Assembly: GCA_947496375.1 (NCBI GenBank)
Contig: CANMCY010000004.1
Span: forward strand, 62,001-126,000
DNA from: Flavobacteriales bacterium
GTDB lineage: Bacteria > Bacteroidota > Bacteroidia > NS11-12g > UBA955
Reading direction: 5' to 3'
Length of the DNA stretch: 64,000 nucleotides
The notes beneath the pieces are model-generated. The model was not told the origin of the DNA and made no database searches. It worked only from the letters and a program-made list of their open reading frames with translations. The stretch's first letter is position 1. The number at the start of each line of letters is the position of its first letter. Position numbers and translations under genes: made by a program. Positions 5,835-40,840 of this stretch are shown here, piece after piece.

Positions 5835-5937
5835 GCGGGCATAGCCCTGATTTTGGGGGGTGTTGATAATTTACGTTAATTTAACATCAAACTGCATGTT
5901 CTTTGGTGGATTTTTGAGGCAAATAATTGTCATTCCT

Positions 5938-7287
5938 ATGCCAAAAACCATTAAAAAGAAATTGGAAAACGGCACAAAAATTTTTGTGTTAGACACGTCT
6001 GTCATTCTGTATGACCACAATGCTATTTTAAATTTTGAGGAGCATGACATTGCCATTCCAATTACGGTTTTAGAGGAGCTTGATAATTTTAAAAAAGGAA
6101 ATGACACCCTAAATTTTGAGGCCCGGGAATTTATTCGGTTTGTGGATAAGCTAAGCAACGGAACGGCTCTTAGTGGATGGATTTCTTTGGCTCCAAGGGC
6201 CGGTGGTGCCTTTTCTGTAATCATGGATGAGCGATCATCGCTGGACGCCACAAAGGTTTTTGGGGATAAAAAAGCGGACCATAAAATTCTGAACGCGGCC
6301 TTGCATATGCAAGAACAATATCCCGGAAGAAAGGTTGTGTTGGTTTCAAAAGACGTAAACCTTCGCTTAAAAGCAAGGTCATTAAACCTTGTTTCTGAGG
6401 ATTATGAAACCGGTAAAATCAAGAATGTAGAGGGGTTGTATAAGGGGATTACGCTGATAGAAACCAACGATAGTCAAATTATAGATACCCTTCACCATCA
6501 GGGTCAAGCGGAACCCGCGCCTGTTTTGGATTCAAAACCTGTTGCCAATCATTATTTTATCATTAAAAACAACAAAAACAGCACGCTTGCATATTACAAC
6601 CCGGAAAACAACCTGTTGGAACGGGTTGAAAAAACGTATGCCTGCGGAATTAAACCCAAAAATGCCGAGCAGGCGTTTGCGATGCATGCACTGATGAACG
6701 ACAACATCCGGCTTGTTTCGATACAAGGGGTTGCCGGAACCGGCAAAACCCTTCTCGCGCTTGCCTGTGCTCTGGAAAATCGCAGTGCTTTCAGGCAAAT
6801 TTTTCTGGCACGCCCCATCATTCCCCTCAACAACAAAGACATTGGATATCTGCCGGGCGATATTAAGGCTAAGATTAACCCGTACATGGAACCCCTTTGG
6901 GACAACCTTAAATTTATCCAAAGCCAGTTTAAGGAAACCTCGAAGGAAAACCAAAGGATTAAAGAGCTGGTGGATACCGAAAAATTGCTGGTAACCCCTT
7001 TGGCCTATATCAGGGGAAGAAGCCTGAGCAATATTATGTTTATTGTAGATGAAGCCCAAAACCTTACTCCTCTCGAAATAAAAACGATCATTACCCGGGC
7101 TGGCGAAGGCACTAAAATCGTGTTTACGGGAGATATAAACCAAATTGACACCCCTTATCTGGATGCTCAGTCAAATGGTTTAAGCTACCTGATTGACAGA
7201 ATGAGAAATCAGCCATTGTATGCCCATATTACGTTGGAGAAGGGCGAGAGAAGTTCGCTGGCAAACCTTGCCAACAGCTTGTTGTAA
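5938..7287 (+). CDS. PIN-PhoH family ATPase (YlaK-like)
   Basis: A 449-residue cytosolic protein. Residues about 13-150 form a PIN nuclease-type domain (FVLDTSVILYD at the start, with acidic residues typical of a metal site). Residues about 240-440 form the PhoH ATPase domain, with Walker A GVAGTGKT and Walker B IMFIVDEAQN. Proteins of this architecture are thought to be RNA helicase/nucleases, but the cellular role is unsettled. The frame is open from 5860; the ATG at 5938 (MPKTIKKKLENG) is preferred because it directly precedes the PIN domain. It is divergent from carB with a 125-base gap. Confidence 0.9.
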   Translation: MPKTIKKKLENGTKIFVLDTSVILYDHNAILNFEEHDIAIPITVLEELDNFKKGNDTLNFEAREFIRFVDKLSNGTALSGWISLAPRAGGAFSVIMDERSSLDATKVFGDKKADHKILNAALHMQEQYPGRKVVLVSKDVNLRLKARSLNLVSEDYETGKIKNVEGLYKGITLIETNDSQIIDTLHHQGQAEPAPVLDSKPVANHYFIIKNNKNSTLAYYNPENNLLERVEKTYACGIKPKNAEQAFAMHALMNDNIRLVSIQGVAGTGKTLLALACALENRSAFRQIFLARPIIPLNNKDIGYLPGDIKAKINPYMEPLWDNLKFIQSQFKETSKENQRIKELVDTEKLLVTPLAYIRGRSLSNIMFIVDEAQNLTPLEIKTIITRAGEGTKIVFTGDINQIDTPYLDAQSNGLSYLIDRMRNQPLYAHITLEKGERSSLANLANSLL

Positions 7288-19710: not shown

Positions 19711-19726
19711 GGTTTCACGTGAAACA
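19711..19726. promoter_or_regulatory. parS: parS-like palindrome B
   Basis: GGTTTCACGTGAAACA matches 15 of 16 bases of the parS consensus TGTTTCACGTGAAACA and contains the perfect palindrome GTTTCACGTGAAAC (19712-19725). It occupies the short gap between ybeY and mnmG. Confidence 0.8.
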
Positions 19727-19729
19727 ACG

Positions 19730-21595
19730 TTGTTTTTAGGAGAATACGATATCATTGTAGTGGGAGCAGGCCATGCCGGTTGTGAAGCAGCACATGCTGC
19801 AGCGCGCATGGGTAGCCGTGTTATGCTGGTAACCATGAATATGGAAACCATTGCCAGAATGAGCTGTAACCCCGCTATGGGTGGCGTTGCAAAGGGGCAG
19901 ATTGTGCGGGAAATAGATGCTTTAGGAGGAATGTCAGGCATCATCACAGACAAAACGATGATACAATTTCGCATGCTGAACCGCAGCAAAGGGGTTGCCA
20001 TGTGGAGTCCGCGTGCCCAAAGTGATCGCTGGCGCTTTGCTGAAACATGGAGATTAACACTGGAAAACACCCCCAACCTCGACTTTTTTCAAGATACTGT
20101 CAAAGAAATTATTGTTATAAACGGAACAGCACAGGGTGTAATTACCGGTATGGGCGCTGAAATACGCTCAAAAGCAGTAATACTGACCAATGGAACCTTC
20201 CTTAATGGCCTGATTCACATAGGCAGCAAGAATTTTGGTGGAGGTCGCATGGGTGAGAGTGCTTCGTTTGGCATAACAGGTCAATTAGAAAATTTGGGGT
20301 TTGTGTCTGGAAGAATGAAAACAGGGACCCCACCCAGGGTGGATGGCAGAAGTTTAAACTATGATGCCATGGAGGAACAAAAAGGAGATGAACAACCTGC
20401 AAAGTTTTCGTTTTCACGTGAAACACATGCATTAAAACAACAGCGCAGTTGCCATATTACCTATACCAATTCAGCCGTACATGATATATTGCGAGAGGGT
20501 TTTGCTGAAAGCCCTATGTATAATGGCAGTATACAGGGATTGGGGCCAAGATATTGTCCCAGTATTGAAGATAAAATTAACCGTTTTGCGGAACGGGACA
20601 GGCACCAGGTGTTTGTAGAGCCAGAAGGGTGGGATACCATTGAAGTATACGTAAACGGATTTTCTACCAGTTTGCCCGACCATGTGCAATTAAAGGCGCT
20701 GCGCCAAATACCCGGCTTTGAAAAAGCCAAAGTGTTCAGACCGGGATATGCCATAGAATACGATTACTTCCCCCCTACCCAGTTAAATCTGACACTGGAA
20801 ACCAAACTCATACAGAATCTGTATTTTGCCGGACAGATAAACGGAACCACAGGATATGAAGAAGCCGCCTGCCAAGGCCTAATGGCGGGGATCAACGCAC
20901 ACCAAAAAACTCAAGAAAAAAACGCAGTGGTGCTGGGGAGAAATGAGGCCTATATAGGTGTATTGATAGATGACCTAGTTAATAAAGGAACTGACGAACC
21001 TTACCGTATGTTCACCTCCAGGGCGGAGTATAGAATAACATTAAGGCAAGACAATGCAGATGAAAGACTTACACCCTTAGGTTATGAAATAGGGTTGGCT
21101 TCTGAAACACGCATTAGGCAACTGGAAACCAAGATACATGATACACAATCACTACTCCATTTCTTTGAGAACAACAATATTGCAGTAGAAGAGGCCAACT
21201 GCCTGCTCGCTGATAAAAATGGTACCACAATCACAGAAAAACAGCGTTATAAAAAATTCCTATTACGGCCGGAAATTACCTTAACCGATATAGCAAATAT
21301 TTCAGAGGTGAACGAGTTGCTGATAAATTGCCAGGAAGAAGCCGCACAAGCTGCAGAAAACCACATTAAATATGAAAGCTACTTAAAAAAAGAGCAGGAA
21401 ATGGCTGAAAAACTACAACGCCTTGAAGAAATTAAAATACCAGCACAGTTTGATTTTCATAAATTAACCTCACTCAGCAAAGAATCGCGGGAAAAACTAC
21501 ATAAAATAAAACCCGTGACCCTTGGTCAGGCATCCAGGATAAGCGGCGTAAACCCTGCGGACATCTCTGTACTTCTTGTTTATTTTGGAAGATGA
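19730..21595 (+). CDS. mnmG: tRNA uridine-5-carboxymethylaminomethyl modification enzyme MnmG
   Basis: The FAD-dependent partner of MnmE that modifies U34 of several tRNAs. The 621-residue protein begins with the dinucleotide motif YDIIVVGAGHAGCEAAHAA. It has the family signatures MSCNPAMGGVAKGQIVREID and LTNGTFLNGLIHIG and the late FAGQINGTTGYEEAACQGL block. The start appears to be the TTG at 19730; no ATG or GTG fits in frame nearby. This gene (gidA) often lies near the replication origin in bacteria, which agrees with the parS-like sites before it and inside it. Its stop overlaps the next start. Confidence 0.96.
   Translation: MFLGEYDIIVVGAGHAGCEAAHAAARMGSRVMLVTMNMETIARMSCNPAMGGVAKGQIVREIDALGGMSGIITDKTMIQFRMLNRSKGVAMWSPRAQSDRWRFAETWRLTLENTPNLDFFQDTVKEIIVINGTAQGVITGMGAEIRSKAVILTNGTFLNGLIHIGSKNFGGGRMGESASFGITGQLENLGFVSGRMKTGTPPRVDGRSLNYDAMEEQKGDEQPAKFSFSRETHALKQQRSCHITYTNSAVHDILREGFAESPMYNGSIQGLGPRYCPSIEDKINRFAERDRHQVFVEPEGWDTIEVYVNGFSTSLPDHVQLKALRQIPGFEKAKVFRPGYAIEYDYFPPTQLNLTLETKLIQNLYFAGQINGTTGYEEAACQGLMAGINAHQKTQEKNAVVLGRNEAYIGVLIDDLVNKGTDEPYRMFTSRAEYRITLRQDNADERLTPLGYEIGLASETRIRQLETKIHDTQSLLHFFENNNIAVEEANCLLADKNGTTITEKQRYKKFLLRPEITLTDIANISEVNELLINCQEEAAQAAENHIKYESYLKKEQEMAEKLQRLEEIKIPAQFDFHKLTSLSKESREKLHKIKPVTLGQASRISGVNPADISVLLVYFGR
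20410..20425. promoter_or_regulatory. parS: parS-like palindrome C
   Basis: GTTTTCACGTGAAACA matches 14 of 16 bases of the parS consensus. It lies inside mnmG. Confidence 0.7.
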
Positions 21596-23031
21596 GCAAA
21601 TTGAATCATATAATATCTGCCCTTTCTATAGTTTTATTGTTTCAATGTGCCAATCCCGTCACACCCACAGGCGGTGCTAAAGATGTGCTACCACCACTAA
21701 TAAAAGTCACCACCCCGACTGACAGAAGTTCCAACATAAAACCCAATATCATTGTATTCCGGTTTAATGAATTTATACAAGCATCAAACATTAAAGAGCA
21801 AATTGTTATATCTCCAAAAACAAATGGTAAACCAAGTATTAACGTAGGTAAAGATAATGTTACCATAAAATTTGAAGGAGATGTTTTTAATGATAATACC
21901 ACATATAGCATTCATCTGAATGAAGCCATTAAAGACTTAAATGAGGGTAACCAGGGAATATATAAACCATTGTTGTTTAGCACCGGAAACACCCTGGATA
22001 CTCAATATCTTTTTGGTAACTGCACATTTATTGAAGAACCCAAATCAAAAAAAGTAAGAATTCAAAGTCTAAACAAACCTTACTATAAAAGTATTGCCAA
22101 TAAAGATTTACGTTTCTCCTTATATGGCCTTCCTTCAGACAGCATAACCATCATCGCATATAATGACCTCAATGGTAATGACTCTTTCGAATCTAATGAA
22201 GATGTAGGTATGCTTAAAACCAAACCCGGAGATACTTGCTCAATATTTTTATATTCCGTTCAAAAAAAGAAACTGAGCCTTTATAATTTTAAAAACAACA
22301 AGTATGGTTTAAACGGCATAAAGACACAAAGTGAAAACAATAATATTATCAATTACAAGGATACCTTAATAGGAGATAGTATTAGTGTATTTGGATTACT
22401 ACAAAAAACAGACAGTACGAGATATATCATACCCAAAAAAGCAGAAAACAAAGCATTCATTTTGAGGTATAGTTTAAATAAACCCTCTTTTCTAGCAGAT
22501 TCATTTCAACAAATCAAATTATCTGCCAACGAAATATTACAAAGTACGTCAAAAGAAACGCAAACGTATTTTAATCATAACAATATGGTTGATTCATGTA
22601 ACACATTATTCGAATTGAATACTGCAGTTTTAAGATTTAAAAATAATCATACTGGAAATGTACGAATCCCTTTTAATCTAGTTACTGAATCTGGAAAGGA
22701 AATAAAGGATACATTCAAAACTTCCATTCCAGTCTATACTCCATTGACCATTTATAATAATGAAGCTTTTGATATATACATTACCCTAAAAAACAAAGTA
22801 AGCGGAGAGACATATAATAGCAACATAGAAAACGGAAAGAATATTAAGTTATGGGTTCAGGCATCTGAACACGAATTATCGTACTTCCATGACATCAATA
22901 AAAATCAGCTGCTTGATGCACCGGATATAACAAAGGAATCATTGGGTGAATACTATAAAAAACTGCCTACCATAAAAATCAAGGAAAATATGGCTGTTGA
23001 TTTGTATGTAAAAGATACGGAAAAACCCTGA
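21592..23031 (+). CDS. Lipoprotein with N-terminal bacterial Ig-like domain
   Basis: A 479-residue protein. The N-terminus MSKLNHIISALSIVLLFQCANP is a lipoprotein signal with Cys at residue 19, and the mature start CANPVTPTGGAKDVLPP is typical of a widespread Bacteroidota family with an SbsA/Big_5-type Ig domain (NIIVFRFNEFIQASNIKEQI, about residues 45-135). The remainder is hydrophilic, strand-rich and unassigned; YNDLNGNDSFESNEDVG looks like a short acidic, perhaps calcium-binding, turn. It is noticeably more AT-rich than its neighbours. It overlaps the mnmG stop (ATGA). Its role is unknown. Confidence 0.85.
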   Translation: MSKLNHIISALSIVLLFQCANPVTPTGGAKDVLPPLIKVTTPTDRSSNIKPNIIVFRFNEFIQASNIKEQIVISPKTNGKPSINVGKDNVTIKFEGDVFNDNTTYSIHLNEAIKDLNEGNQGIYKPLLFSTGNTLDTQYLFGNCTFIEEPKSKKVRIQSLNKPYYKSIANKDLRFSLYGLPSDSITIIAYNDLNGNDSFESNEDVGMLKTKPGDTCSIFLYSVQKKKLSLYNFKNNKYGLNGIKTQSENNNIINYKDTLIGDSISVFGLLQKTDSTRYIIPKKAENKAFILRYSLNKPSFLADSFQQIKLSANEILQSTSKETQTYFNHNNMVDSCNTLFELNTAVLRFKNNHTGNVRIPFNLVTESGKEIKDTFKTSIPVYTPLTIYNNEAFDIYITLKNKVSGETYNSNIENGKNIKLWVQASEHELSYFHDINKNQLLDAPDITKESLGEYYKKLPTIKIKENMAVDLYVKDTEKP

Positions 23032-23062
23032 TAATATTATGACAACAGGTGAATTGTGTTAC

Positions 23063-23078
23063 CGTTTCACGTGAAAAA
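23063..23078. promoter_or_regulatory. parS: parS-like palindrome D
   Basis: CGTTTCACGTGAAAAA matches 14 of 16 bases of the parS consensus. It is intergenic, 32 bases after the Ig-like lipoprotein gene. Confidence 0.7.
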
Positions 23079-23396
23079 AGAACCGCTTCCTCAAGAGGTG
23101 TTGAAACTGGTTCAAAACATAATCATTTTTAAACTGATTAATTCGCTGTATATGCTCATAAAAAAGGATTGATTATGACATAATAAAATAAAACTATTGG
23201 CCTAAAAAACCCTATAAATAAAGGATCTTAGGAATATTTGATAAAAATGTGATTACATAAATTAAAGGTATTCCACATTTCCACACAGCTGTATTTAATA
23301 TATATTAATATAATATTTAAATGAAATGTTTTATATTTATATTAGGGATGGGGATATCGGGGAAAATATGATGTAAGAAAAAACCTAGGATCTTTT

Positions 23397-23404
23397 TACT
23401 TTTG
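23397..23404 (+). promoter_or_regulatory. TACTTTTG promoter box of pheS
   Basis: TAnnTTTG match, 8 bases before the ATG at 23413. Confidence 0.65.
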
Positions 23405-23412
23405 TAATCGCA

Positions 23413-24420
23413 ATGCTGGACGAAATTGAAAAAATAGAAAAAGAAACTGCATCAATACATTTTGCAGATGCCGAATCTCTGGAACAGTTTCGTCTGACCT
23501 ATCTTTCTTCCAAAGGAAAAATACAGCATCTGATGGATGCCTTTAGAAATCTGCCCGGTGAAGACAAGAAAACAGTTGGTAAACCTCTGAATGCCTTGAA
23601 GGCCAGATTGGAAGAGGTATACAAAATCAGTAAACAGCAATTAACAGCAACTTCTGGAACGGAAAACAAGTTTGATACAACGTTACCGGTTTCATCCATG
23701 GCGACCGGGAGTTCACACCCCTTAAAAATAGTAGAAAACACCCTGTGCGATATATTTTATTCACTGGGGTTTGATATTGCTGATGGTCCGGAAATAGAGG
23801 ATGACTGGCATAATTTTGGGGCACTCAATTTTGCTGATGATCATCCGGCAAGGGATATGCAGGATACTTTTTTTATTGGCAATCATGTGCTGAGAACCCA
23901 TACCAGCAGTGTACAAATAAGAGAAATGGAAAAAAGAACCCCACCTATACGATTGGTCATGCCGGGTAGGGTGTATCGCAATGAAGCCATTAGCTCACGC
24001 AGTAATTGTTTTTTTCATCAGATTGAGGGGCTTTATATAGATAAAGGGGTATCCTTTGCTGATCTGAAACAGACGCTGTATTATTTTGTGCAGCAGTTTT
24101 TTGGAGAAGGAACCCAAGTAAGATTCAGATCCAGTTATTTTCCATTTACCGAACCCAGTGCCGAAATGGATATATGGGCAGGTACAGACACAGAAGAGAA
24201 TAGACGGTTAACCAAGGGAACGGGATGGCTGGAAGTATTGGGTTGTGGTATGGTACATCCTAATGTATTAAAATCCTGTAATATAGATCCTGAGGTTTAT
24301 CAGGGATACGCATTTGGTATGGGAATAGACCGAATTACCATGTTAAAATACGGCATCAACGATATACGGGATATGTTTCACAACGACATCCGGCTGTTGT
24401 CTCAATTTGCGGGCTTGTGA
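23413..24420 (+). CDS. pheS: Phenylalanyl-tRNA synthetase alpha subunit
   Basis: Catalytic chain of the class II heterotetramer that charges tRNA-Phe. It is 335 residues with an N-terminal coiled coil (about 1-85) followed by the class II core. Motif 2 is in PIRLVMPGRVYRNEAI, and motif 3 is in YAFGMGIDRITMLKYGI near the C-terminus. The HPLKIVENTLCDIF and DSxH-like DDHPARDMQDTFFI segments are family hallmarks. The stop overlaps the GTG start of lpxH. pheT is not in the window, so the two subunits are not in one operon here. Confidence 0.95.
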   Translation: MLDEIEKIEKETASIHFADAESLEQFRLTYLSSKGKIQHLMDAFRNLPGEDKKTVGKPLNALKARLEEVYKISKQQLTATSGTENKFDTTLPVSSMATGSSHPLKIVENTLCDIFYSLGFDIADGPEIEDDWHNFGALNFADDHPARDMQDTFFIGNHVLRTHTSSVQIREMEKRTPPIRLVMPGRVYRNEAISSRSNCFFHQIEGLYIDKGVSFADLKQTLYYFVQQFFGEGTQVRFRSSYFPFTEPSAEMDIWAGTDTEENRRLTKGTGWLEVLGCGMVHPNVLKSCNIDPEVYQGYAFGMGIDRITMLKYGINDIRDMFHNDIRLLSQFAGL

Positions 24421-31397: not shown

Positions 31398-31506
31398 TAA
31401 ACAACGAAAACAAAGTTTTGGCGGTCGTTTTCCTAGCAATTTTGGGTAATGATCTAAAACCAGGGCTTTCATAGCCAACTGTGTTTTGGTAAATTATTAT
31501 CCTTTA

Positions 31507-34500
31507 ATGAAAGCCACCACTATCTTCAAAAGCAGTCAAAGACCTGTTAAAACCGTTAACACACGTTTTGATTTTAGGCATCTTTTTACACCTGCAACGG
31601 TAATTCTTTTTTGCTTATTCTTCCATTTTTCTCAAAAAACCCATGCCCAAACAAATGTCGATATTTTAGTGGTTGGCGCAGGCGGCGGTGGTGGTGGACA
31701 CAATTCAAGTTCAACTGGAAATAGAACCGGTGGTGGCGGCGGTGGCGGGGTTGTTTACTTACAAGGCACCTCTATTTCTACAGGCAGTTACTCGGTTACA
31801 GTTGCCCCAACAACAAGTGGTATAAGTATCAGGTACGGTAATAATGGAAGTAGCAGTTCTTTTATTAGTTCAGTTTCAGGTGGTATCTCTATGATTGCAA
31901 ATGGCGGTGGTGGAGGCGGTGGAAGCGGCGGTGGTGGCCGGGGTGGAGGTTCTGGTGGCGGTGAGCATGGCGATGCTGGTAGAGGAAGTGCAACAACAGG
32001 TTCATGTTCAGGCAATTCTTCTGGCACTACTCCACTTATATATGGTAATGCAGGTGGTAATAACTCAAGTAATCAAGGTGGTGGTGGTGGCGGAGCTGGT
32101 GCAGTGGGCGGTATTTCTGGTGGAGGGCAAGGAGTGTCTATTTCCATAACAGGGTCTTCTCTAACATACGGTTCAGGTGGTGGCGGTAATGGTCCTACTG
32201 GAGGAGCAGGAGGAGCAAATGCCGGTTATGGAACAAGTGGAGCCAGTACAACTGGCAATGGCGGAAGCATTAATGCAGCTGACAATTTTGGCGGTGGTGG
32301 CGGTGGTTCATCTTGTGGTAGTTGTACTTCAGGTGCAGGCGGTTCTGGGGTTGTTATTTTAAGTTATGCAAGCAGCACATCTTATGTTTCTGGTGTAGGT
32401 GGTTCTGGACAGGCAACATGCACAACAACCACTTATAATATCGGCAGCACCACCTATCAAGTGCACAAATTCACAGGTTCAGGCACATTTGTGTTTACCG
32501 TGGGTCATATTACAGCGAACCCTTCTTCATCAACCCAAAATATTTGTTTAAACGGAACCGCAACCGCATTGAGTGTAACCACAAACGGCACATCCCCCTC
32601 ATATCAGTGGTATAGCAACACATCAAACAGCAATGCTGGAGGAACGATAATATATGGGGCAACAACCAATTCATACACGCCACCTACAACAGCTGCGGGC
32701 ACAACATATTATTATTGTTCTGTAACGGCTACAATGGGTGGAAATGTTCTTAATCAAACCAGCACCGTTTCGGGGGCAATTAATGTAGGTTCGGTAGCAG
32801 GGAGCATAAGCGGGGCAACAACCGTTACATCTTCAACAAACAGCACAACATTAACCACTTCTGGGCATTTGGGAAGTGTGCAGTGGCAATCTTCAAGCAA
32901 CAATTCTACCTTTTCTGATATTTCAGGTTCTACCACTACAACCTATACAGCAAGCAATATCTCAGCAACGACTTATTATAGGGTAAAAGTAACGAATGGC
33001 TCTTGCGCGTCTGTTTATTCTTCGAGTGTGGCTATTTTATATCAACCCGGAACAGCGGCTGCAACAACGGCAACCCTAACGACAACAGGCAGTACTAGTG
33101 TAACAAACAATGTTGCCACCAATATAGACCCCGGAATAACAGTAACATCCAATGGATCATTGACAGGGTTTTCTGTTTCAATCACAAATAATTATACAAC
33201 AGGAGACGAATTATCCTATACAGGCAGCCTACCAACCGGAGTAAACGCTGCCGCATTCAACACAACCAGCAGAAGCCTTGTTTTTAGTGGCACAGCCAGT
33301 GCATCAGACTGGCAGGATTTATTAAGAAGGGTTCAAATAAAAACCACATCTGCATCCTGCAACCCAGAAACCCGCCGTGTAAGCTTTACCGCAAGCACCA
33401 ATTATTATAATCATTTTAATGGACATTTTTATGAATACAGTCCAACCATAAGAACTTGGACGGCAGCAAAAGAATATGCAGAATCACAGTCCTTTTTTGG
33501 CAGAAAAGGGTATTTAGTAACAGTTTCATCTGCAGTCGAAAATGCATTTATTTATTCTTTGATAAACCAAAACACATGGATAGGGTGTAGTGACAACTTT
33601 TCACAGATTAATGGTGCTGCCGGTTATACAAAATACAGTTCTCAAAGTTTAGCAGAAGGCCAGTGGCACTGGATAACAGGACCTGAAAAAGGTGTTAAGA
33701 TACGCACCGGAAATGCCTCAACAGCTGAAAAAGCCGGATCTGCCGTTTCAGGGATATACCAAAACTGGAACCTTGGAGGTCAATACGGCAATAACGAACC
33801 TAACGATGTTTGGAGTTTAGGAACTCCGGGCCAAGAAGACTATGGACATTTGTGGGGAAACACTGGCAAGTGGAATGATTTTCCAAACAGAGGCAGGGCC
33901 TGCATCATTGAATACGGAGACATGCCAGGAGACAATCCGGTAAACACCTTGGAGGCAACACAAACCATCAATGTTGGTGTCGCGGCAACCGGCACAATAT
34001 CTGGGGGTGGAGTCTCAGTGTGTTCTTCTACGAACAGCTCCGCATTAACCTATTCTGCTTCAGGGGGATATAGTGTAGTGCGATGGGAATCTTCACCGGA
34101 TAATTTTTTAGCAACAACAACAAGCATCGCTTCAACCAGCAGCACCTATACCGCCACTAATATTTCAGAAACAACCTCTTACAGGGTAGTAATATCAAGC
34201 GGTTCATGCGTCACATCTACCGCGCCAGTTACCATAACATATGCTACAATCAATGCGGGCACCATTGTGTCTAGTGATGCAACAATCTGCGAAAACACTT
34301 CAGCAAAACTATCTTTAAGTGGGTGCACGGGTTCTGTCACAAAATGGCAGGTTTCTACCACATCAGGAAGTGGGTTTTCAGACATATCTTCCTCTGCAAG
34401 CTCATCTCTTTCATATTCCATGACGACCGCGGGCACGCGTTATTTTAGGGCCGTTGTCAACAACACCTCTTGCAGCACAACAACAAACAGCGACGAATAT

Positions 34501-36030
34501 ATTGTTACCGTTTCTGCATCTTCCACACCCGCAGGTGGGGAGGTCAGCAGTAACGCTCATTGTGGAATAAACAATAGTGGCACATTGGTGTTATCTGGAT
34601 CTGGCGGTAGCTCGTATAGCTGGGAATACTCAACAGACAACGGAAGTAACTGGATTAGCGCGTCAAACACAACAACCTATCTAAACTACACAAACATATC
34701 CCAAAACCGATTGTATCGAGTCTTGGTTAGTGATGGTGCTTGTGGAAGCACACATAGTTCAAACGGTTCAATTACCATTTATGGCACAACAAAGACACTG
34801 TTTACGGGGGCGGTTAGCGGTGATTGGAGCAATGGTCAAAACTGGTGTTCCGGTGTAATAGCAGATAATGGTTCCGACATGGACGTAAGCCCAATGTGTG
34901 GGTATGATATTCTTTTAGATAAAAACAGAAGGGTTGGTCAATTAAAATTTTTATATGGATCTAAATATGTTAGACTAGGCAATTACAACCTGACCGCAAA
35001 TAATATATCCGGCAATGACAGTTTAAACCACATAAAAATTACAGGAACCGGGGTTTTGAAAATGGGTCTGGGCCATACTGAACAAAAAACATTTGCCATA
35101 GGAAAAAGCACCTACAACCCGATTACAATCACCAACAAAACCAATCAAACAGATACGTTTACAACATCTCTGCTGGACGATGTTTTGGGTAAAGGCACTT
35201 GTTGTGTTCCATTAACAACACCCCGGGTTAAAAGAACATGGATAATAACCAAAGGTAATGGTACGGCCAATTCAGGTGATGGCGTGGATTTCACATTCAA
35301 CTGGTATAAAAACGAGATTAGTGGCACTATCAACACATACAAGATGTATCATTTTAATGGCAGTAACTGGGATAAAACCACACCCGCATCAAGCAGTGTT
35401 GTAGATACTGCATATTATACCCATAATGGTTATAAGGGATCCTTTTCGCCTTTTGCAATGGGGGATGATGTGGTTTTGCTACCTGTAATCTGGCAAAGCA
35501 TGTCTTGTAGTAGAGGATCAGAAAACACCGCTAGTGTTAACTGGTCAACGGGCAGCGAAACCCAGTCAGACAGCTTTATTGTAGAACGAGCTACTCCGGG
35601 GGGGGGGTTCGTAATGGTTGGCTCGGTTAAGGCGGCCGGCTATAGTAGCACCCCTCGTAGGTATAGTCTGACTGACAAAACAGCGTCCAAGGGTGTTTTG
35701 TTTTATCGCGTAAAGCAAAAAGATGAGCAGGGCAATGCCTCATACAGTGAAATATGCGAGGTGGCCCCAACGAGCAGCGAAGAAGGAAACGTGAAGATAT
35801 TCCCCAATCCGGCGGACCAAAACGTGCAGGTTGTGCTTGGTGATGGCGACATGAACGGTATGACTGTATCAATAACCAATAGTGCAGGTGTAATGGTTGC
35901 AGGCAAAACAGCCAAAGGCCATAGTGTGGAGTTCCCCACTGCCAAGCTTCCGGCGGGACTTTACATCATCCGGGTAAGCGGCCCGGGCATGCAGCCGCAC
36001 CAGCATAAGATGGTTATCCAGCATCCATAA
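31507..36030 (+). CDS. Giant secreted glycine-rich / Ig-like / C-type-lectin protein with T9SS sorting domain (copy A)
   Basis: A 1507-residue protein. The unusually long signal peptide (MKATTIFKSSQRPVKTVNTR, hydrophobic core, HFSQKTHAQ) is cut near residue 48. Residues 50-330 are a glycine-rich domain starting VDILVVGAGGGGGG; 335-510 two Ig-like modules (SPSYQWYSNTS; VQWQSSSNN); 515-630 a strand-rich module; 633-812 a C-type-lectin-like domain with the EPN (NNEPND) and WND (KWNDF) calcium/sugar motifs; 818-1095 more Ig-like modules; 1427-1507 a type A T9SS domain (VKIFPNPAD to GLYIIRVSG). It is probably a cell-surface adhesin. The ATG at 31507 is chosen over the ATG at 31486 because it begins the part shared with copy B. 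Confidence 0.88.
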   Translation: MKATTIFKSSQRPVKTVNTRFDFRHLFTPATVILFCLFFHFSQKTHAQTNVDILVVGAGGGGGGHNSSSTGNRTGGGGGGGVVYLQGTSISTGSYSVTVAPTTSGISIRYGNNGSSSSFISSVSGGISMIANGGGGGGGSGGGGRGGGSGGGEHGDAGRGSATTGSCSGNSSGTTPLIYGNAGGNNSSNQGGGGGGAGAVGGISGGGQGVSISITGSSLTYGSGGGGNGPTGGAGGANAGYGTSGASTTGNGGSINAADNFGGGGGGSSCGSCTSGAGGSGVVILSYASSTSYVSGVGGSGQATCTTTTYNIGSTTYQVHKFTGSGTFVFTVGHITANPSSSTQNICLNGTATALSVTTNGTSPSYQWYSNTSNSNAGGTIIYGATTNSYTPPTTAAGTTYYYCSVTATMGGNVLNQTSTVSGAINVGSVAGSISGATTVTSSTNSTTLTTSGHLGSVQWQSSSNNSTFSDISGSTTTTYTASNISATTYYRVKVTNGSCASVYSSSVAILYQPGTAAATTATLTTTGSTSVTNNVATNIDPGITVTSNGSLTGFSVSITNNYTTGDELSYTGSLPTGVNAAAFNTTSRSLVFSGTASASDWQDLLRRVQIKTTSASCNPETRRVSFTASTNYYNHFNGHFYEYSPTIRTWTAAKEYAESQSFFGRKGYLVTVSSAVENAFIYSLINQNTWIGCSDNFSQINGAAGYTKYSSQSLAEGQWHWITGPEKGVKIRTGNASTAEKAGSAVSGIYQNWNLGGQYGNNEPNDVWSLGTPGQEDYGHLWGNTGKWNDFPNRGRACIIEYGDMPGDNPVNTLEATQTINVGVAATGTISGGGVSVCSSTNSSALTYSASGGYSVVRWESSPDNFLATTTSIASTSSTYTATNISETTSYRVVISSGSCVTSTAPVTITYATINAGTIVSSDATICENTSAKLSLSGCTGSVTKWQVSTTSGSGFSDISSSASSSLSYSMTTAGTRYFRAVVNNTSCSTTTNSDEYIVTVSASSTPAGGEVSSNAHCGINNSGTLVLSGSGGSSYSWEYSTDNGSNWISASNTTTYLNYTNISQNRLYRVLVSDGACGSTHSSNGSITIYGTTKTLFTGAVSGDWSNGQNWCSGVIADNGSDMDVSPMCGYDILLDKNRRVGQLKFLYGSKYVRLGNYNLTANNISGNDSLNHIKITGTGVLKMGLGHTEQKTFAIGKSTYNPITITNKTNQTDTFTTSLLDDVLGKGTCCVPLTTPRVKRTWIITKGNGTANSGDGVDFTFNWYKNEISGTINTYKMYHFNGSNWDKTTPASSSVVDTAYYTHNGYKGSFSPFAMGDDVVLLPVIWQSMSCSRGSENTASVNWSTGSETQSDSFIVERATPGGGFVMVGSVKAAGYSSTPRRYSLTDKTASKGVLFYRVKQKDEQGNASYSEICEVAPTSSEEGNVKIFPNPADQNVQVVLGDGDMNGMTVSITNSAGVMVAGKTAKGHSVEFPTAKLPAGLYIIRVSGPGMQPHQHKMVIQHP

Positions 36031-36051
36031 CCCAAAAAACCATAACGGTAC

Positions 36052-36079
36052 AAAAAAGGGGGCCTAGCCCCCTTTTTTG
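36052..36079 (+). terminator. Intrinsic terminator after giant copy A
   Basis: Nearly perfect palindrome: A-run, GGGGGC, loop CTA, GCCCCC, T-run. Works in both directions. Confidence 0.9.
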
Positions 36080-36300
36080 TTTTTAATGCAACGGTTAAAT
36101 ATTTTAATGATACAATGGTAAAAGCCACTTTCAAAATTATAACCAATGCTAAAACATATACGTTTAAAATACCTGATAAAAGTTTAATAAACATTGAGCG
36201 GCACAAAAAAATTCTACAACAAAACAAAACAAACTGTTTGGGGCCTAGTAAACATTAGAAAAAACACACAAAAAAGATAGTGTTGTTTAATAATTGTTGA

Positions 36301-36308
36301 TATTTTTG
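36301..36308 (+). promoter_or_regulatory. TATTTTTG promoter box of giant copy B
   Basis: TAnnTTTG match 23 bases before the ATG at 36332. Confidence 0.5.
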
Positions 36309-36331
36309 GAGTCTAAAATAAGACTTTTAGA

Positions 36332-39300
36332 ATGAATCCCTCCGCAATCTTTAGAAGCAGTCAAAGACCTGTTATAACCCTTAAAACACGTCTTGGTTTT
36401 AAGCGAGTTTTTAAACCCGCAGCATTGCTTGTTCTTTGTTTTTTATTTCAGTTTTCTCAAAAAAGCTACGCTCAAACTACCGTGGATATATTGGTGGTGG
36501 GTGGTGGAGGTGGCGCTGGGTATGCTCGTGGCGGCGGTGGCGGCGGCGGCGGATATATTTATTAGCAAAACTATAGTTTAACATCAGGAACCAACTACTC
36601 AATAACAGTGGGGTCTGGCGGAGGTAAAGGTACCTGTTGCACAACAATAAATTCCATTAGCTCAGGAATTCACGCTCTGAGTGGAACAAACTCATCTTTT
36701 AATGGCGTTTCTGCATTAACAGCTGTTGGAGGGGGTGGTGGAGGAAGCTATGAAGGATTAAAACAGAACGGATACAATGGGGGGTCTGGTGGCGGTGGAG
36801 CAAATCAAAGAAACAGTGGAGACGTTGGCATTGGAGGTACTGGCACATCTGGACAAGGATATGGTGGCGGTAATTCCCGCTGTGGAGGAGGGGGGGAGGT
36901 TTCTGGTGGCGGTGGCGGTGGGGCTGGAGCCGCCGGCACAAATGGAACGAGTTCGGGATGTTCTCGCCCGTTTTATCCAGGAAATGGGGGTGATGGAAAA
37001 TCAAATTATATTACAGGTACTTTAACTTATTATTCTGGCGGCGGCGGCGGCGGCGGGTTAGGTGTTTCTACCAATCTACAAGGGACAAATGGTCAAGGGG
37101 GAGGGCAATCAAACTATGGCGGCGGAGGTCAATGCAAGGTTGTTAGCAATTCTTTTGTAGGAGAAAACGGTGGCCCTGGTGTAGTAATTGTAAGATATGC
37201 CAGCGCAACACAAAGAGCAACAGGAGGAACAGTGACTAGCTACACAGGAAATGGGACCAACGGAACGAATGGAACAAAGTACTATGTACACACATTTACT
37301 ACAAATGGCACATTTACAATTACCACAAATATTAGCACCCAGCCAAGCACAACAGCACAAAACATTTGTATTAATGGCACGGCAACAGCCCTTTCATGCG
37401 TAATTAGTGGCACATCTCCCACATATCAGTGGTATAGCAACACTACAGCTTCCAACACTGGAGGAACAATAATTTCGGGGGCAACCAATAGCAATTATAC
37501 CCCTCTTGCAACAGCAGTTGGAACAACATATTACTATTGTGCGGCGTCAAGTAGTTTAGGAAGCGAAACCAGCCAGGTTTCCGGCGCAATTAACATTAAC
37601 ACCCCATCCGTTTCCGGCACGGTAACAGGAGGCAACACGGTTACTGCAGGCACCAACAGCACCACACTGAGCGTGACTGGGAATACCGGCACGGTTCAGT
37701 GGCAATCATCCTCAGATAATACAACGTTTAACAATATCAGCGGAGCGACCTCATCAACGTACGCTGCCACGAACCTAAGTACCACAACCTACTACCGCTC
37801 TGCGGTTACCAATGGGGGGTGTTCTACGGTATATTCCAATTCTAATTCCGTTATTGTAACTCCGGCACCAACCGGCACAACTTCTGTTGGCATAACGCTT
37901 ACATCAGCGTCTGTTAACATAAACAACGGGGTTGCCACAGCAGTAGACCCAACTTTAACCGTTTCATTTACAGGGAATCTGGCCGGCTTTACCGTTAGTA
38001 TTTCTGAAAATTATAGAACCGGCGACATACTTTCATTCAATAGCGGCTCTTTGCCATCAGGAGTAACGGGCAGTTGGAGCGCACAACGCAGAAGCATTGT
38101 ATTTACAGGAAGCGCCACCGCAGCGGATTGGCAAACACTTTTGAGGACGGTAACCCTTCAAACCTATAACGCCTCATGCAACCCGGAGACACGCAAGGTA
38201 AGCTTTACTGCCAGCACCAATTATTACAACTATTTTAATGGGCATTACTATGAATATGTAAGCGCTAAGAAAAACTGGACACAAGCCCGGGACTATGCAG
38301 CATCTCGATCTTTTTACGGTAGGCAAGGATATTTGGTGGTTATCAATTCTGCAGAAGAAAACGCATATATCAGCCAGTTGATTGGCTATAATACATGGCT
38401 AGGAGGAACGGACAACTACAAACTCATCAATGCGGCGGTTGGATATACCAAATACACGAGCCAAACAGCAGCAGAAGGCAAATACCATTGGGTAACCGGG
38501 CCCGAAAAAGGCGTGAATTTCTCTAATGGAAACGGCTCACCCAGCATACCCGCAGGCCGCTATTGTCGCTGGGAATCAGGCGAACCAAACAACTACAACA
38601 CGGGCTATTACGACAATCACGTATCTGCATATGGAGAGCACTACATGCACATTTACGCTGACCGCAAAACCTGGAACGACTTTCCCAATGATCGCTATTT
38701 TGCCAGTATTATCGAATATGGTGACATGCCGGGAGACAACCCGGTCGGTACCGTAGAAGCCACCAGAAACATAGATGTACAGAACGTTGACGCATCGGGA
38801 TATGTAACAGCAACCGGTAGCACCACAATTTGCACAGGCACCGGAAAAACGCTGTCACTAACCAACAACTCTTCGGGGTCTACTGTTATCAGATGGGAGT
38901 CGTCAGAAGATAATTTTTTAGAAACAGAAACGGCCATCAGCCACACATCAACTACCTATACAACCGCAAACCTTACCAAAACAACGTCTTTCAGGGCGGT
39001 GATTGTTAAAAACAGTTGCACAACAGTTAGCAAAGCGCTTACCGTCACAGTTATTGACCTCAACGCGGGTGCAATAGTTTCTAATACCAACACCGTTTGC
39101 ACCGGGCAAAATGCAGTTTTGAGACTGAACGGGCTTGTGGGCACGGTAAGGAAATGGCAGACAGCAACAGACACCAACAGCACGATTAGTGATATTGTAA
39201 ACACCACAACAAGTTTAACACGCCAGGTTGCATCAACAGGAACCCATTATTTCAGAGCGGTTGTTTATAGTACCGCCTGCAGCGGAAGTCCCGACAAAAA

Positions 39301-40840
39301 TTCTGCGTGGTATGCGATAACAGCAAGCGCAGCGCCAACCCTCACAGGGGGTGATGTATCCAGCCAGATGCATTGTTCTGTTAATAACTCAGGAACACTT
39401 GAACTTACCGGCGCAACCGGCATAACATACAACTGGCAGCAATCCACCAACAACGGGTCCAGCTGGTCGAACACGAGCCCAACCAGTACCAGCGTAATTT
39501 ATAGTTATGCAAATGTTACACAGAACACATTATATAGGGTTCAAGTTAGCAATGGTTGTACAACCGTAAATAGCAACAGCGGCCTGGTCGGAATCTACGG
39601 CACCAACAAATGCCAGTGGATTGGCGGAACCAGCACCGACTGGGGTACCAGGGCAAACTGGTGTAATAACACCATCGCTGAAAACGGATCGGACTTTGAC
39701 ATCAGCCCCGACGCCACCTATAACCTGGTATTGGACAGAAACAGAACCGTGGGGACCATCAACTTCAACGGCGCTGCCAAATACATATACTTGGGAAATC
39801 ACAGACTCATAGTAACCGACATTTTGGGTGCCGATACAGCTAACCATATCAAAACCAATGGCAACGGAGAGTTGAAAACCAGCATTCCCAACAACGATAG
39901 CTTTGTATTCTGTGTTGGGGCCGGGTCATACAATCCGGTAACCATTACCAACAAAACCGGCTCAACCGATGATTTTCAGGTTCGGTTGATAGACAATGTG
40001 TATGACCGGGGGTCTACAGGCAATCCACTTAACACCCCGCGCATAAAACGCACGTGGTTCATTGATAAAATCGGTGGACCGGCCAATAGCGGCAGCGGCA
40101 TAGACATGGCCTTCGATTGGTACACCCCGGAGGTTTCAGGCACCATCAACACCTACCGCCTATATCACTACAACGGCAATAACTGGGACAAACTGTCTGC
40201 CGGTTCCTATGCCACACGAACCCGCAACCTTAAGTACAGCGGCTACACGGGCACATTCTCTCCCTTCTCTATGGGCGACGATGTGGTACTGTTGCCTGTT
40301 AACTGGGTGGGATTATCCTGTGTGCGCGAAGAGGGCCGTCGTAACCGCATTTTATGGGTTACCGGCAGCGAAACCCTGTCGGATAGTTTTGTGGTAGAAC
40401 GGGGCAACATGGCAGGACAGTTTCGCCGCGTAGGGGCTATCCCTGCCGCAGTCAACAGCACCACCCCACGCCAATACAGCATGACAGACATGCAAGCACC
40501 GGAGGGCACCTCCTTTTACCGGGTAAGACAAACCGACAAACTGGGCAACAGCTCTTGCAGCGAAATATGCGAGGTGGCCTCAGCGAGCAGCGAAGAAGGA
40601 AACGTGAAAATATTCCCCAATCCGGCTGACAATAACCTTTATGTACAATTTGCGGAAGCACAGGAACCGGGTACAGAGGTGGTTGTAACCGACATTACCG
40701 GCAAAGAGGTGTTGCGCAGAACCGTCAACAAAGGCCGAATGGTATTGCCCACGGGTCAATTGCCTTCAGGGGTGTATGCCGTGCAGATAAAACGCGGTGG
40801 AAATGCCGATATCATGCAAAAAATCATCATCCAGCACTGA
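36332..40840 (+). pseudogene. Giant secreted protein, copy B, interrupted by in-frame TAG
   Basis: Paralogue of copy A with the same layout: 48-residue signal peptide (MNPSAIFRSSQRPVITLKTR to FSQKSYAQ), glycine-rich domain, Ig-like modules, C-type-lectin-like domain (WESGEPNN, TWNDFPND) and T9SS domain (VKIFPNPAD to GVYAVQIKRGG). A TAG at 36563-36565 (codon 78) stops translation in the glycine-rich domain; the same frame continues open for 1424 more codons. The stop aligns with Leu of copy A (VVYLQG), and the following Gln codon CAA is the same. The downstream piece could restart at GTG 36608 but would lack a signal peptide. Recent nonsense mutation or sequencing error. Confidence 0.8.

Follow-up and report, generated by a model that had tools for sequence, protein, structure and literature searches.

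The intergenic region upstream of pheS (positions 23032-23412) is very probably the chromosomal origin of replication, oriC. It lies between an open reading frame at 21592-23031 and pheS, and it carries a parS site, a tandem pair of DnaA boxes, and an AT-rich tract. A preliminary description of this DNA had already read the gap as an origin, and that reading is supported by the conservation across the order of both the box/AT block and parS, which is stronger evidence than the earlier description had, as well as by the GC skew of relatives. Positions refer to the window, the whole stretch of 64,000 nucleotides that was analyzed (G000:C4:62001-126000), taken from an assembly of 2.49 Mb in 47 contigs. 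What is new here is the location and not the kind of element: this is a well-supported new place for a known element, and the literature searched, whose coverage was incomplete, held no report of a pheS-linked origin.

Anatomy of the region upstream of pheS

The gap measures 381 bases, as first described, and runs from the stop codon of the open reading frame at 21592-23031 to the pheS ATG at 23413. The pheS gene itself (23413-24420, plus strand) was recognized by the Pfam domains PF01409 and PF02912. Nearly all of its named relatives belong to Bacteroidota, and this, together with a CHU_C domain of type IX secretion, places the genome in that phylum. The left flank of the gap is a plus-strand gene for a Big_5-domain protein, probably a lipoprotein (PF13205), and this is the one gene separating the gap from mnmG/gidA (19730-21595, plus strand; PF01134), which had been correctly placed upstream. 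mnmG adjoins pheS in order-level relatives too.

Two DnaA boxes on the plus strand, TATTCCACA at 23269-23277 and ATTTCCACA at 23277-23285, overlap by one shared base. The adjacent pair is where it was reported to be, but the term near-consensus overstated its quality: each box has two mismatches to TTATCCACA, only the TCCACA cores are exact, and near-consensus boxes in the gap were rejected, as a search allowing at most one mismatch matched neither. The exact 17-mer formed by the pair is unique in the genome, with the next best match having two mismatches and others three. The DnaA protein of this genome retains the signature GGRDHSTVIHA in its DNA-binding domain, which fits recognition of a TCCACA core.

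The spacer CAGCTG (23286-23291, plus strand) connects the second box to an AT tract at 23292-23344, a probable DNA unwinding element. The preliminary count of two G/C in 53 bases is accurate, and this is the sole such tract over 139 kb of contig C4, with none over 120 kb of contig C6. DnaA boxes in an intergenic region and an AT-rich unwinding element beside them, both hallmarks of an oriC, are thereby present. The repeat AGGATCTT, which had also been pointed out, does occur at 23222 and 23387, but it changes freely in same-genus sister species; we rejected it as an origin iteron and treat it as a chance occurrence.

At the right end of the gap, a probable pheS promoter was read from the sequence, with a -7 element, TACTTTTG (23397-23404, plus strand), located 8 bp before the ATG. 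The -7 consensus of Bacteroidota promoters is TAnnTTTG, and same-genus species have a similar ..TTTG ahead of the pheS ATG. A promoter placed right at the ATG would probably leave the origin outside the pheS transcript.

We propose that DnaA occupies the overlapping box pair and extends from there into the AT tract, which would then melt and let the helicase load in the manner of the basal unwinding system, so that replication would fire at this site. ParB, encoded elsewhere, may bind parS at 19713, 20412, and 23065 and segregate the newly copied origin.

parS sites and ParB

The parS-like site previously noted in the gap, CGTTTCACGTGAAAAA (23063-23078, with a palindromic core at 23065-23076), has 2 mismatches in 16 positions to TGTTTCACGTGAAACA. 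Its exact 12-base core, TTTCACGTGAAA, has three copies in the 2.49 Mb genome, and the reversed control of this core has zero. Besides the copy in the gap, the exact-core search placed one just upstream of the mnmG start (19713-19724) and one inside the mnmG coding sequence (20412-20423). All three lie at most 3.7 kb from pheS, forming the kind of parS cluster that is found close to origins. A ParB gene is present at G000:C5:131819-132349 (E 1.6e-51), and the genome therefore has both components by which we recognized a ParABS system, a parS site with no more than two mismatches to the consensus and a ParB gene.

The same arrangement extends to relatives, in nine of which a parS core precedes the start of the mnmG match by 17-49 bp. 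With this genome included, the relatives have 28 exact cores, of which 23 are no more than 10 kb from pheS; of the other five, four belong to other contigs and the last is at a distance of 39 kb. Five genomes that lack an exact core (G016, G027, G029, G031, and G038) carry the variant TTYCACGTGRAA at -3.5 to -4.7 kb. Five species of the genus agree in the position of the core internal to mnmG (+682 of this gene, shared with G002, G003, G004, and G005), and in G009 it is nearly identical.

Conservation among relatives

pheS was located in 34 of the 39 genomes searched. In many same-family and order-level species, a block made up of box pair, spacer, and AT-rich tract lies about 120-150 bp before the pheS ATG, and further away in a few. 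The sequence after the second box is CAGCT or TAGCT in most same-family species, while CAGCT, TAGCT, GCCT, or AGCT-like variants are seen among the relatives as a whole. When the same-genus sequences are aligned, the flanks have diverged, and the block, parS, and the probable pheS promoter stand out against them.

We built a profile, R1, from 12 same-family species, excluding this genus. At E<=0.001, it matched 11 genomes, once in each and upstream of pheS, and two of these are same-genus species that had been left out of the profile. The site in the window was not reported by the whole-genome search at E<=0.001, in which 149 of 802 candidates were scored; when scored directly, it was the top match over 186 kb, with a modest score (E 0.017) and an alignment at the second box. 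Weak R1 matches at 254 kb in G014 were dropped as coding-like sequence.

In a set of 80 named pheS loci, a parS site within 10 kb tends to accompany the block, a tendency not seen at the loci that lack it (Fisher p ~0.0025, small numbers). Three named Bacteroidota loci (L060, L069, and L090) have parS a few kb upstream, with the block absent upstream of pheS. The block was also not found at pheS in genus g9, represented by G014 and G024 (loci L208-L209, G024:C15). In G014, mnmG and the parS beside it are 39 kb away from pheS (L168, G014:C4), and the origin of this genus may have moved.

Relation to known origins

The basal unwinding system (BUS) of bacterial oriC, known for example from Bacillus subtilis, is recognized by tandem DnaA boxes, the best with at most two mismatches and the other with at most four, and by three or more DnaA-trios (3'-NAN-5') no further than 16 bp from a box (PMC8287927). 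Similar to the BUS, our site has tandem boxes, with two mismatches in each, a short spacer, and then, on the same strand, an AT-rich tract for melting. Unlike the BUS, it has no strict trio run near the boxes, and both of these deviate from the consensus; its own run of two trios within 12 bp of the boxes is no better than in shuffled sequences. Longer runs are seen in G016 (eight trios) and G035 (seven) and are visible in L041, with CTA/ATA/TTA runs in all three. As a feature of the whole genome set, strict trios were rejected, since the summed runs are no longer than those of shuffles and only G016 and G035 stand out. The working of the site would resemble that of the BUS.

We see about an even chance that a broader pattern applies, in which the origin of a whole Bacteroidota order is compact and keeps its place upstream of pheS, with one overlapping box pair, an AT tract, and parS both at and inside mnmG, and in which the family of the window has drifted from canonical DnaA-trios to an unwinding sequence of the CAGCT-ATATTA type. 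Such a compact two-box origin would be a good test object for the extent of DnaA-trio degeneration, and the conserved landmark of pheS, mnmG, and parS offers a simple means of placing oriC in this order.

The gammaproteobacterial oriC, situated between gidA (mnmG) and mioC, likewise has mnmG near the origin, but it differs from our site, where the immediate right neighbor is pheS, mnmG is separated from the origin by a Big_5 gene, and the array of boxes is far smaller. The likeness is probably independent in origin. A study of mouse-gut strains, including two Bacteroidetes, describes parS clusters that, together with skew and coverage, marked an ori not always located at dnaA (PMC10197239). 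The clustering of parS at our proposed origin agrees with this, and the conserved box element linked to pheS is a point of difference, as the passages of that study considered here name none. Bacteroidota origins are not always at dnaA, so draft genomes and coverage-based estimates of growth rate can be anchored wrongly.

GC skew and alternative explanations

The preliminary description had named a minimum of the cumulative GC skew at this place as a check, and in two relatives with long contigs negative skew changes to positive at pheS. In G029 (contig of 2.41 Mb), where pheS is at 2.108 Mb, a negative stretch extends from 1.6 to 2.10 Mb and positive skew follows directly; in G016 (contig of 1.79 Mb), mostly negative values become positive around 400 kb, with pheS at 406 kb, and the 100 kb around the site form a plateau of weak skew. 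The GC skew at third codon positions differs across pheS in both genomes, for plus and minus genes separately (p<0.0005); because the difference holds within each gene strand, gene orientation is not sufficient to account for it. Additionally, G024 shows a sign change near 97 kb, with pheS at 95 kb.

The contig of the window does not add support of this kind. Its strand-controlled skew is mixed, with no clean reversal. A change point in the raw AT/purine signal at window 18.3-18.7 kb was rejected as proof of an origin, as it largely tracks gene orientation and was not reproduced in the strand-controlled third-position GC skew. Together with the limitation to two boxes of two mismatches each, the missing strict trios, and the situation in genus g9, the skew of this contig counts among the points against an oriC at this site.

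As an alternative, the region might be only a parS centromere and an AT-rich pheS promoter, with the true oriC elsewhere, perhaps within tens of kb. The mixed skew of C4 would suit such an arrangement, as would the resolution of the relatives' skew, which was sampled in 20-kb stretches and is therefore accurate to about 10-20 kb. A possible place for such an origin is a minus-strand cluster of three DnaA-box-like sites at window 5861-6269, between carB and an adjacent open reading frame at 5860-7287. This cluster is conserved only in part, the TTATCAACA box at 5861 being all that is kept in most same-genus species, and at pheS conservation extends beyond parS to the tandem-box block itself, which keeps a fixed distance from the gene. 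We therefore regard an origin elsewhere as unlikely.

The fixed distance between block and gene could also reflect a regulatory site of pheS, either a transcription factor site or an RNA leader, unrelated to replication, and DnaA is capable of acting as a transcription factor. This explanation appears very unlikely. A leader RNA starting from the probable TAnnTTTG promoter would exclude the block, the co-located parS and the skew reversal would be left unexplained, and named pheS loci that lack the block mostly lack a nearby parS as well.

An oriC beside dnaA, although a common arrangement in bacteria and one for which a single dnaA copy is available, is the least likely of these alternatives, as dnaA is on C6, a different contig from pheS, where there is no box with at most one mismatch within 5.5 kb around the gene, no exact parS core at it, and a uniformly positive skew over 120 kb. 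The earlier suggestion of an origin beside pheS instead of dnaA is thus supported, and the better box cluster that might have spoken against it was looked for near dnaA and is absent there.

Other contigs of this genome have skew of a clear sign, positive in C1 and C6 and negative in C3. To the right of the proposed origin, where the skew of C4 leans the wrong way, two very long glycine-rich open reading frames of low-complexity composition (1514 and 1410 aa) occupy window 31486-40840 and may distort the strand skew on that side.
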